Source: Bryobacterales bacterium
GTDB taxonomy: Bacteria; Acidobacteriota; Terriglobia; Bryobacterales; Bryobacteraceae
Direction of reading: 5' to 3'
Assembly (NCBI GenBank): GCA_020847315.1
Contig: JADLCF010000324.1
Coordinates: 1-44,246 of the forward strand
DNA length: 44,246 nt
The notes under the pieces were generated by a model. It saw only the letters and a program-made list of their open reading frames with translations. It made no database searches and was not told where the DNA came from. Of this stretch, positions 8,615 through 10,171 are shown piece after piece; position 1 is the first letter of the stretch, and each line of letters opens with the position of its first letter. The position numbers and the translations under genes are program-made.

Positions 8615-8661
8615 TGGTACGCCCGATTGGATTCGAACCAATGGCCTTCAGCTCCGGAGGC
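8615..8661 (-). repeat. Displaced 3' part of tRNA-Arg (putative attachment site)
   Basis: These 47 bases are identical to 10095-10141, the 3' part of the intact tRNA-Arg gene, in the same orientation. The copy covers the encoded CCA, the 3' acceptor strand, the T-arm, the variable loop, the 3' anticodon stem and the CCG anticodon region, and stops at the 5' side of the anticodon loop. It lacks the D-arm and 5' acceptor, so it cannot be a tRNA. Such a truncated copy is what integration at a tRNA gene leaves at the far end of an element. Confidence 0.85.
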
Positions 8662-8818
8662 GAGAAATATCGATCACTGCCGGACATCGCTGCCTGACAA
8701 CAAAAGCCATGCGTGTCGATGCTCTGGGCCCAGATGGACCCAAATGCGACGGTTTCTAGCTGTTTAAACCGTGGACGGATCCTACTTCCACATCGGAGAG
8801 CTATTGGCATTCGCACGG

Positions 8819-8834
8819 ACGCGCGCGAACGCTT
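8819..8834 (+). repeat. 16-base repeat shared with the tRNA-Arg upstream region (copy 1)
   Basis: ACGCGCGCGAACGCTT occurs here inside the putative cassette and again at 10196-10211, just upstream of the tRNA 5' end. The spacing (1,377 bases) differs from that of the tRNA repeat (1,480), so it is not part of the same direct duplication. Its CG-rich content makes chance possible. Confidence 0.5.
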
Positions 8835-9064
8835 CGATCTCCGCACGGACGGCATAAAATAATCTGTGCTCGACGGAAAGGAATTCCCAATCCCTTATAG
8901 GCAGGCGACGCCAACATGGCTGCACGAGCATGTGGGTATACTCTTTCGTAATGTGCGCTTCCGGGCGGCTTCACGGCTGGTCTGTGGGCAACCGGCCGGA
9001 ACATGCATGCGTTCGTGCGAACCGGCGGGAGAACCTGTAACCGCGGAGACTATCTTCCGATACG

Positions 9065-9928
9065 TCAGGGCTTTTGAGCAAGCATCTTGACGGATTGGCC
9101 CTTTCGGCCTCCCTGTCCGACCTGCCAGTCCGAAAGTTCTTCTTTTTCCTCGTAATGCAGAATTCGCAAGGCTCGAAAAATCTGCTTGAGTTCACCGGCT
9201 TCCGGAACCCCGATTAGCGATGCATCGCCGGTTCGGTCTGCGCCCCTGTTGACGACTCCGTACTGAAACACAAGCAATCCCCCTTGACGCATCGATGCGA
9301 TAAGCCGGCCTACATACTTGCGATCACGGATTGGGAAATAGGCATACGTCATCACAACGAGATCCCACTTCTCGTGTCCAAAATCAAACTCCTGGTAACC
9401 CGAGCGGATGGCCTCTATCCGTACCCCGGCTTTCTTTGCCTTTACCAGCGCATTGGCGACCGCAATATCCGAAACATCAAAGCCCGTTGCCTTCCAGCCC
9501 AAGCTGGCAAGGAAAACTGAATTACGCCCCTCGCCCATGCAGACATCTAGCGAGGCGCCCGGCGTGATGCCCTTCACGGCTTCCATCAGAAGGGGCGTGG
9601 GCCAGTCCGGCCCAATCGCACCGTTGGGGCCGTACATGCTGTTGAACCATAGCCGCATTGCTTCGGGGCGTTTGAGGGAACGTTCCGAGATCGTCTTCAT
9701 GCGACGTTCTACTTCTGGCTTCGGAACTCCCCGCTCGGTCAGCGTCTTGCGGTAGGTCTCAAGCCCAACGAGATCGCCAACGGCGCGGCCCTTCAGCCAA
9801 GCCAAGTACTCATCCCATAGGGCATCGTCATCACTGGCAGCCGTAACAGTGGAACACACCGCAAGCGAAGACACGAAAGCGCGCCGAGAAAGTTTCCGAT
9901 ACCGGTCGAAGGGATCTCGGTTGTGCAT
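9065..9928 (-). CDS. Class I SAM-dependent methyltransferase with Tat signal peptide
   Basis: 287 aa. SLDVCMGEGRNSVFLASLGW (Asp128, Gly132, Gly134) is the glycine-rich motif I of Rossmann-type methyltransferases, followed by the acidic residue Asp151 in GFDVSD that normally binds the SAM ribose; KWDLVVMTYAYFP is the motif IV region. Overall it resembles TehB-like small-molecule methyltransferases. The N-terminus carries SRRAFV (residues 14-19) and a hydrophobic stretch ending in TVTAAS, a credible twin-arginine signal, which is unusual for an enzyme needing cytoplasmic SAM. No clear ribosome-binding site precedes the ATG. It is the only recognisable gene between the two tRNA-Arg-derived repeats. 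Fold call good, substrate unknown. Confidence 0.75.
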   Translation of the reverse strand: MHNRDPFDRYRKLSRRAFVSSLAVCSTVTAASDDDALWDEYLAWLKGRAVGDLVGLETYRKTLTERGVPKPEVERRMKTISERSLKRPEAMRLWFNSMYGPNGAIGPDWPTPLLMEAVKGITPGASLDVCMGEGRNSVFLASLGWKATGFDVSDIAVANALVKAKKAGVRIEAIRSGYQEFDFGHEKWDLVVMTYAYFPIRDRKYVGRLIASMRQGGLLVFQYGVVNRGADRTGDASLIGVPEAGELKQIFRALRILHYEEKEELSDWQVGQGGRKGQSVKMLAQKP

Positions 9929-10094
9929 GCTGAGGGCAAAGACGCTGGGTCTTGCCCATGGGTTTCATGGACGATTGGACCCGTTGCGAGCGATTACATC
10001 GACCGTCATCACGGGTACAACTGGGCGCGGCGGCAGTCAATCAGGGTCCGATAGAGTCCACGGACGCGATGCTCGAGTGATGAGAGGAGAGGGT

Positions 10095-10171
10095 TGGTAC
10101 GCCCGATTGGATTCGAACCAATGGCCTTCAGCTCCGGAGGCTGACGCTCTATCCAGCTGAGCTACGGGCGC
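10095..10171 (-). tRNA. tRNA-Arg (anticodon CCG)
   Basis: 77 bases including an encoded CCA. Read on the minus strand: acceptor GCGCCCG pairs with CGGGCGT (one G-U end pair), D-arm GCTC/GAGC, anticodon stem TCAGC/GCTGA around loop CTCCGGA giving anticodon CCG, five-base variable loop, T-stem ATTGG/CCAAT around TTCGAAT, discriminator A. All stems pair, so the gene looks functional. It decodes the arginine codon CGG. Its 3' 47 bases are repeated exactly at 8615-8661. Confidence 0.96.

Follow-up and report, generated by a model that had tools for sequence, protein, structure and literature searches.

An integrase-less 1.5-kb element at a tRNA-Arg(CCG) gene of a Bryobacterales bacterium belongs to an apparently undescribed family found at several tRNA genes

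Introduction

How does a unit of 1.5 kb that encodes no recombinase come to lie between a tRNA gene and a copy of the 3' part of that gene, and could such a unit move? The question is raised by a locus of a Bryobacterales bacterium (Acidobacteriota; Bryobacteraceae), which we analysed in a window of 44,246 nt, positions 1 to 44,246 of contig JADLCF010000324.1 (GCA_020847315.1). The assembly comprises 404 contigs and 4.75 Mb and is 87% complete by tool estimate. A preliminary description had read the locus as a tiny element, either mobilised in trans or shrunken, and possibly of an undescribed class. Elements without integration genes have precedents: CIMEs have lost their integration and transfer genes and kept attL and attR (PMC5704250), and an integration module is found in 16 of 31 Dehalococcoides ssrA islands (PMC3146451). 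The part of the Solibacter usitatus paper considered here reports many integrases and 16 candidate islands, and in that part units of the present kind are not mentioned (PMC3174227).

Results

Insertion at tRNA-Arg(CCG) and the empty site

The 47 bases at 8615-8661 recur exactly at 10095-10141, in the same orientation and with a spacing of 1480. They correspond to the part of tRNA-Arg(CCG) that runs from the anticodon stem to the 3' end, and the second copy lies, as the preliminary description had it, inside an intact tRNA-Arg(CCG), the one that ARAGORN and Rfam both place on the minus strand (10171..10095). Because the best other tRNA-like match to this tRNA in the assembly reaches 83% identity, a chance origin of the repeat was dismissed.

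The tRNA-Arg(CCG) is identical or nearly identical in three genomes of the same genus. The empty site that the preliminary description had proposed to look for is present in two congeners, G002 (contig 6) and G004 (contig 243), where the left flank up to 8661 and the right flank from 10095 align continuously, joined at the 47 bases, and where the neighbouring genes are collinear with those of the window. G001 is uninformative on the insertion site, since its tRNA-Arg(CCG) sits in a different context. The flanks meeting at the 47 bases in G002 and G004 show that 8615-10094 is a genuine insertion of 1480 bp at the 3' part of tRNA-Arg(CCG). Its absence from the two congeners suggests that it was acquired after the genus arose, loss in both being less likely. 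Two readings named beforehand as fatal to the idea of an insertion thus fall away: the repeat ends at 47 nt and is no part of a larger plain duplication, and the arrangement is not fixed in all relatives. The features of the locus are collected in Table 1.

An exact 16-nt repeat, ACGCGCGCGAACGCTT, occurs in the distal arm of the element (8819-8834) and in host DNA (10196-10211), and its host copy, 25 bp upstream of the tRNA gene, is nearly identical in G004. For the right flanking gene, the XrtA/PEP-CTERM-associated ATPase model scores under its cut-off (269 vs 324.5 bits).

Table 1. Features of the element, its flanks and displaced tRNA halves at related loci
Feature	Position	Strand	Evidence
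Left flanking gene, 1051 aa; host DNA, outside the element	5402..8557	+	Collinear in empty-site genomes
Distal att copy, 47 nt displaced from the 3' part of tRNA-Arg(CCG)	8615..8661	-	Repeat of 10095-10141; empty-site joint
Conserved distal end: core-adjacent motif and putative P arm, common to elements of many genera	8655..8923	+	R1, 190 bits (not independent, the window sequence being among those used to build R1); G015 alignment
Core-adjacent motif GAGAAATATCGATCACTGCC; family consensus AAAAATATCAATCACTTAC	8662..8681	+	
Putative arm-type site GGGCCC, one mismatch to GGACCC, offset 112	8726..8731	+	
Putative arm-type site GGACCC, offset 122	8736..8741	+	
Putative arm-type site GGATCC, one mismatch, offset 163	8777..8782	+	
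Cargo gene: Tat-like leader and class I SAM methyltransferase (Methyltransf_25/TehB-like), 287 aa	9065..9928	-	Pfam; G268 homologue
Putative P' (proximal) arm site GGGTCC, in inverse orientation to the distal sites	10044..10049	+	
Putative P' (proximal) arm site GAGTCC with one mismatch	10054..10059	+	
Intact tRNA-Arg(CCG), with the proximal att copy as its 3' part (10095-10141)	10095..10171	-	ARAGORN, Rfam, repeat
Right flanking gene, AAA ATPase, XrtA/PEP-CTERM-associated type; host DNA	10259..11158	-	Collinear in empty-site genomes
Displaced tRNA halves called by ARAGORN	L058 15108-15180; L093 8088-8160, 10501-10572; L095 9277-9349; L096 2792-2864; L150 11730-11802; L166 266-338		

Element contents

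The methyltransferase gene is the sole convincing gene of the element, and no recombinase or integrase ORF was found within 8615-10094, in agreement with what had been noticed at first. Matches of the product to Methyltransf_25 and TehB exceed the Pfam cut-offs, and the TehB equivalog models score far under theirs. Its homologue in G268 shares 74% of amino acids, with identities of 0.82, 0.87 and 0.53 at codon positions 1, 2 and 3; differences that lie mainly in third positions show that the gene has been under purifying selection. The Tat-like leader was called by eye. Similar leaders are present in the G268 homologue and in some distant homologues (L015, L019), and a twin-arginine-like leader is odd on a SAM-dependent enzyme.

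A conserved distal end shared by a family of elements

Matches to the distal end, which adjoins the displaced tRNA part, were found in G057 (twice), G268, G155 and G015, each time in an element that lies between tRNA-Arg(CCG) and the 3' part of a tRNA; the local alignment with G015 scores 108, against a shuffle maximum of 41. These elements carry differing cargo (a cystathionine gamma-lyase-like enzyme, an IS transposase, an erythromycin-esterase-like protein, an amidohydrolase, or none), and the two in G057 stand in tandem at tRNA-Arg(CCG). The IS transposase gene in the first of this pair is split across two frames (L093 8818-10196). Since RNAalifold gave little covariation and no convincing covarying fold on the conserved end, we chose a sequence-only model, R1, built from the six ends (window, both of G057, G268, G155 and G015).

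By model R1, the distal 265 bp recur in 91 of 257 genomes of the order; among 399 genomes sampled from the class, the distal end was found in 40, of which 36 belong to the order of the window. About 100 regions were fetched, and 87 of 113 matches come right after a tRNA 3' half at the expected place. The targets are tRNA-Arg(CCG), Pro(CGG), Pro(GGG), Ala(GGC) and Gly(GCC). A second att copy was located for 33 elements of 378 bp to 7.4 kb, sizes that are biased small by contig ends and by a search range of about 12 kb. Below 3 kb there are 24 of these, none with an intact integrase and one with a 189-aa remnant, and two of the nine elements of 3 kb or more carry an integrase; these counts, like those of matches that have no second copy and of arm sites below, are approximate, as the first-match lookup may misplace a second identical att copy in arrays, and the G057 pair was scored as a single unit of 4181 bp because its middle att copy differs. 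An integrase match lies downstream in 16 of the 53 matches that have no second copy (some are partial, and all read toward the conserved end). Tandem units are present in G057, G144 and G248, and gene orientation is mixed.

The end of the window element therefore places it in a family whose members lie at several tRNA genes and mostly lack an integrase. The preliminary description had proposed a search for the same unit at other tRNA-Arg genes, and the recurrence turned out to be broader, at tRNA genes for Arg, Pro, Ala and Gly. No match to the window element was found among phages and plasmids. At locus L307 of G155 there are two copies of tRNA-Val(GAC), with weak conserved-end matches beside each (6239-6430 and 9815-10004); tRNA-Val(GAC) is a possible further target.

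ARAGORN calls several displaced halves tRNA-Arg(CCG) or tRNA-Pro genes of 72-73 nt (Table 1), which are likely annotation artefacts. Some displaced copies in L096, L058 and L093 differ from the intact tRNA in the T-stem with pairing kept, and look as if the elements had swapped the 3' half of the host tRNA for a foreign one.

Putative arm-type sites

In most of the Arg(CCG) and Pro(CGG) elements, in the Gly(GCC) ones and in a few others, GGACCC is laid out at offsets of 111-112, 121-124, 150-153, 161-164 and 173-175 from the att copy. Nearly all occurrences in the first 260 nt of these elements fall at the five ranges; as background, 32 kb of the window hold 17 in either orientation. The inverted form, GGGTCC, lies near the other end in several elements. 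The GGACCC subfamily has what characterises a lambda-type attP, namely short repeated sites at a fixed distance on both sides of the core, and we infer that GGACCC and GGGTCC are putative arm-type sites that an integrase would bind. The window copy retains one exact site per end, together with three one-mismatch versions at the expected places; four of its six consensus arm sites are mutated or missing.

Genome contigs were also scanned for GGACCC. Many of the Acidobacteriota matches are elements already in the family set; most of the others (Streptomyces and further taxa) do not fit the end model and were taken as chance. Five viral matches yielded no more than weak fits to the end model, in a single contig.

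Candidate integrase partner

The larger relatives carry a coherent family of tyrosine recombinases of 416-498 aa (about 440 aa) that read toward the conserved end. The remnant of 189 aa mentioned above is a truncated integrase in a Gly(GCC) element with GGACCC arms (L226), and G194 contains another remnant, in an element of the Arg(CCG) type. A search for an autonomous Arg(CCG) element in 37 kb of that genome turned up this remnant alone and no intact tRNA-Arg. No strong conserved end adjoins the integrase in the integrase-bearing contigs of G155, G015 and G269. In a pairwise comparison of 180-nt ends, whose background is high owing to free end gaps and whose kept alignments comprise about 165-180 aligned bases, only the Ala-type small elements were clearly linked to integrase-bearing ends. 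The Arg/Pro-type ends did no better than background there, and their link consequently rests on the profile score. The putative partner of the GGACCC subfamily would be a member of the 416-498-aa family that the larger relatives carry. G256 (a complete genome) and G268 (complete or nearly so) both have GGACCC-type elements and contain no close homologue of the ~440-aa integrase family, so the partner may be another enzyme, or these copies may be fossils.

The suggestion that a tyrosine integrase with a matching att core would be encoded elsewhere in the genome found no support in the 87%-complete assembly of the window, where no cognate was detected. Its PF00589 matches are two Xer-like proteins, one unrelated phage-type integrase of 330 aa and one sub-threshold fragment. 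Given this recombinase inventory, the window copy is probably stranded now.

Movement of integrase-less forms

Small Ala-type elements of G248, G023 and G140, a subfamily other than that of the window, share 873-1076 bp at 90-93% DNA identity between genera, and their cargo consists of toxin-antitoxin-like genes. The flanks of G023 and G140 are 72-76% identical, and the G248 flank has no match. Related integrase-less members of the family thus resemble one another much more closely than do the flanks on either side of them in different genera. In G144, a small element that lacks an integrase forms a tandem with an element that encodes one, and the att copies are identical; in G263, the tandem partner of a small element is 4.4 kb long and encodes an unrelated integrase of 348 aa. 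Such sharing between genera and these tandems favour movement in trans over decay in place for integrase-less elements, as judged from comparison of the loci.

At L134, tRNA-Pro(CGG) is the site of a 4.4-kb element (3992-8391). Besides RelA/SpoT-like and ParA-like genes, this element encodes an integrase of its own, 348 aa long, which reads into the tRNA gene; the conserved end of the family was not detected on it.

Discussion

We consider it probable that 8615-10094 is a non-autonomous integrative element, made up of a lambda-type att site with its core and both arms and of one passenger gene, which was mobilised in trans by the ~440-aa tyrosine integrase family. A tyrosine integrase encoded elsewhere would excise the element as a circle of about 1.5 kb, which would then recombine with the anticodon-loop region of a tRNA gene, and integration would rebuild a complete tRNA from the element's own 3' half. 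The GGACCC/GGGTCC repeats would serve as arm-type binding sites of that integrase, and the acting enzyme would be a member of the 416-498-aa family.

The element could instead be what is left of a larger integrase-encoding island that lost its integrase and most of its genes at the tRNA and was never mobile in its small form. CIMEs are a described outcome of this kind (PMC5704250), and the truncated integrase in L226, the partly mutated arm sites of the window copy and the missing cognate integrase in its genome are all compatible with it. We nevertheless regard decay in situ as unlikely, because compact integrase-less forms predominate among the bounded elements (24 of 33 below 3 kb) and because decay does not yield 90-93% DNA identity across genera with diverged flanks. 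The window element, moreover, contains hardly anything beyond its gene and the two arms, and no difference has arisen between its att copies. Both halves of the early reading, mobilised in trans or shrunken, stay alive, and sharing between genera favours the former.

The occurrence of one or two unrelated genes per unit next to a conserved end, together with the tandems in G057, G144 and G248, also recalls an integron-like system, in which a dedicated recombinase would capture single genes as cassettes and shuffle them among tRNA sites. The attC sites of integrons act as folded strands, whereas the conserved end has no convincing covarying fold; the sites are tRNA halves, gene orientation is mixed and no dedicated integrase was found beside most arrays, which makes this reading very improbable. 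In an assembly of 404 contigs, one might suspect a chimaeric join or a simple duplication, in place, of the 3' part of the tRNA. This reading is already refuted by the two congeners in which the site is empty and both flanks are collinear, and it has a negligible probability; the conserved end is homologous to elements of other genera, and the repeat ends exactly within the tRNA.

Compared with known systems, the trans-mobilised element that we favour resembles CIMEs, which are likewise bounded by attL and attR, lack integration and transfer genes and occur in tandem with integrase-bearing elements at one site (PMC5704250); the window element keeps attL and attR, as seen from the 47-nt repeat and the empty-site joint. 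A CIME has by definition lost its integration and transfer genes; the window element contains none of these genes, and may once have had them. A CIME derives from an ICE or IME; here, an integrase is encoded by larger relatives that share the conserved end. CIMEs move in cis by tandem accretion, and the tandem in G144 is seen here as an arrangement in the sequence only. Unlike CIMEs, the bounded units mostly have a compact form of one or two genes, several of them with both arm regions retained, and the family spans many genera and at least five tRNA genes, related integrase-less units being shared by different genera.

The Dehalococcoides islands also lie in tandem at an RNA gene with short repeats of its 3' end as bounds, and they use a serine recombinase and 20-bp repeats at the T-loop of tmRNA (PMC3146451), whereas the integrase linked to the present family is a tyrosine recombinase and its target is the anticodon-to-3' part of tRNAs. 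With tyrosine-integrase islands at tRNA genes the window unit shares target, att duplication and empty site, and larger relatives in which its end recurs encode an integrase; the unit itself differs in encoding none and in being 1.5 kb long. Integron gene cassettes similarly combine one gene with a recombination site and form tandem units, but no IntI-attC system was seen among the PF00589 matches, there is no folded attC, and the sites are tRNA parts.

The notion of an undescribed class is therefore only partly right: elements such as CIMEs and tandem islands without an integrase are already known, whereas for a compact, arm-keeping family that spans several tRNA genes and is shared between genera, no description was found in the open-access literature, a search that leaves its absence unproven. 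The family is widespread across Bryobacteraceae and apparently undescribed. Programs that find genomic islands mostly take an integrase as their starting point and will easily overlook units of 1-2 kb that lack one; in addition, ARAGORN annotates several of the displaced halves as tRNA genes.

A wider and more tentative idea, which we hold to be rather doubtful, is that Bryobacteraceae keep tRNA-anchored single-gene cassettes as a functional counterpart of integron cassettes: minicircles of attP plus one gene, trans-mobilised by dedicated tyrosine integrases and arrayed at several tRNA genes, that spread accessory genes between genera. If mobilisation in trans is true, these units would offer a natural minimal substrate of a tyrosine integrase, with two arms, a core and one gene, and some of the gene exchange in this abundant family of soil bacteria would depend on minimal, cheaply carried elements.
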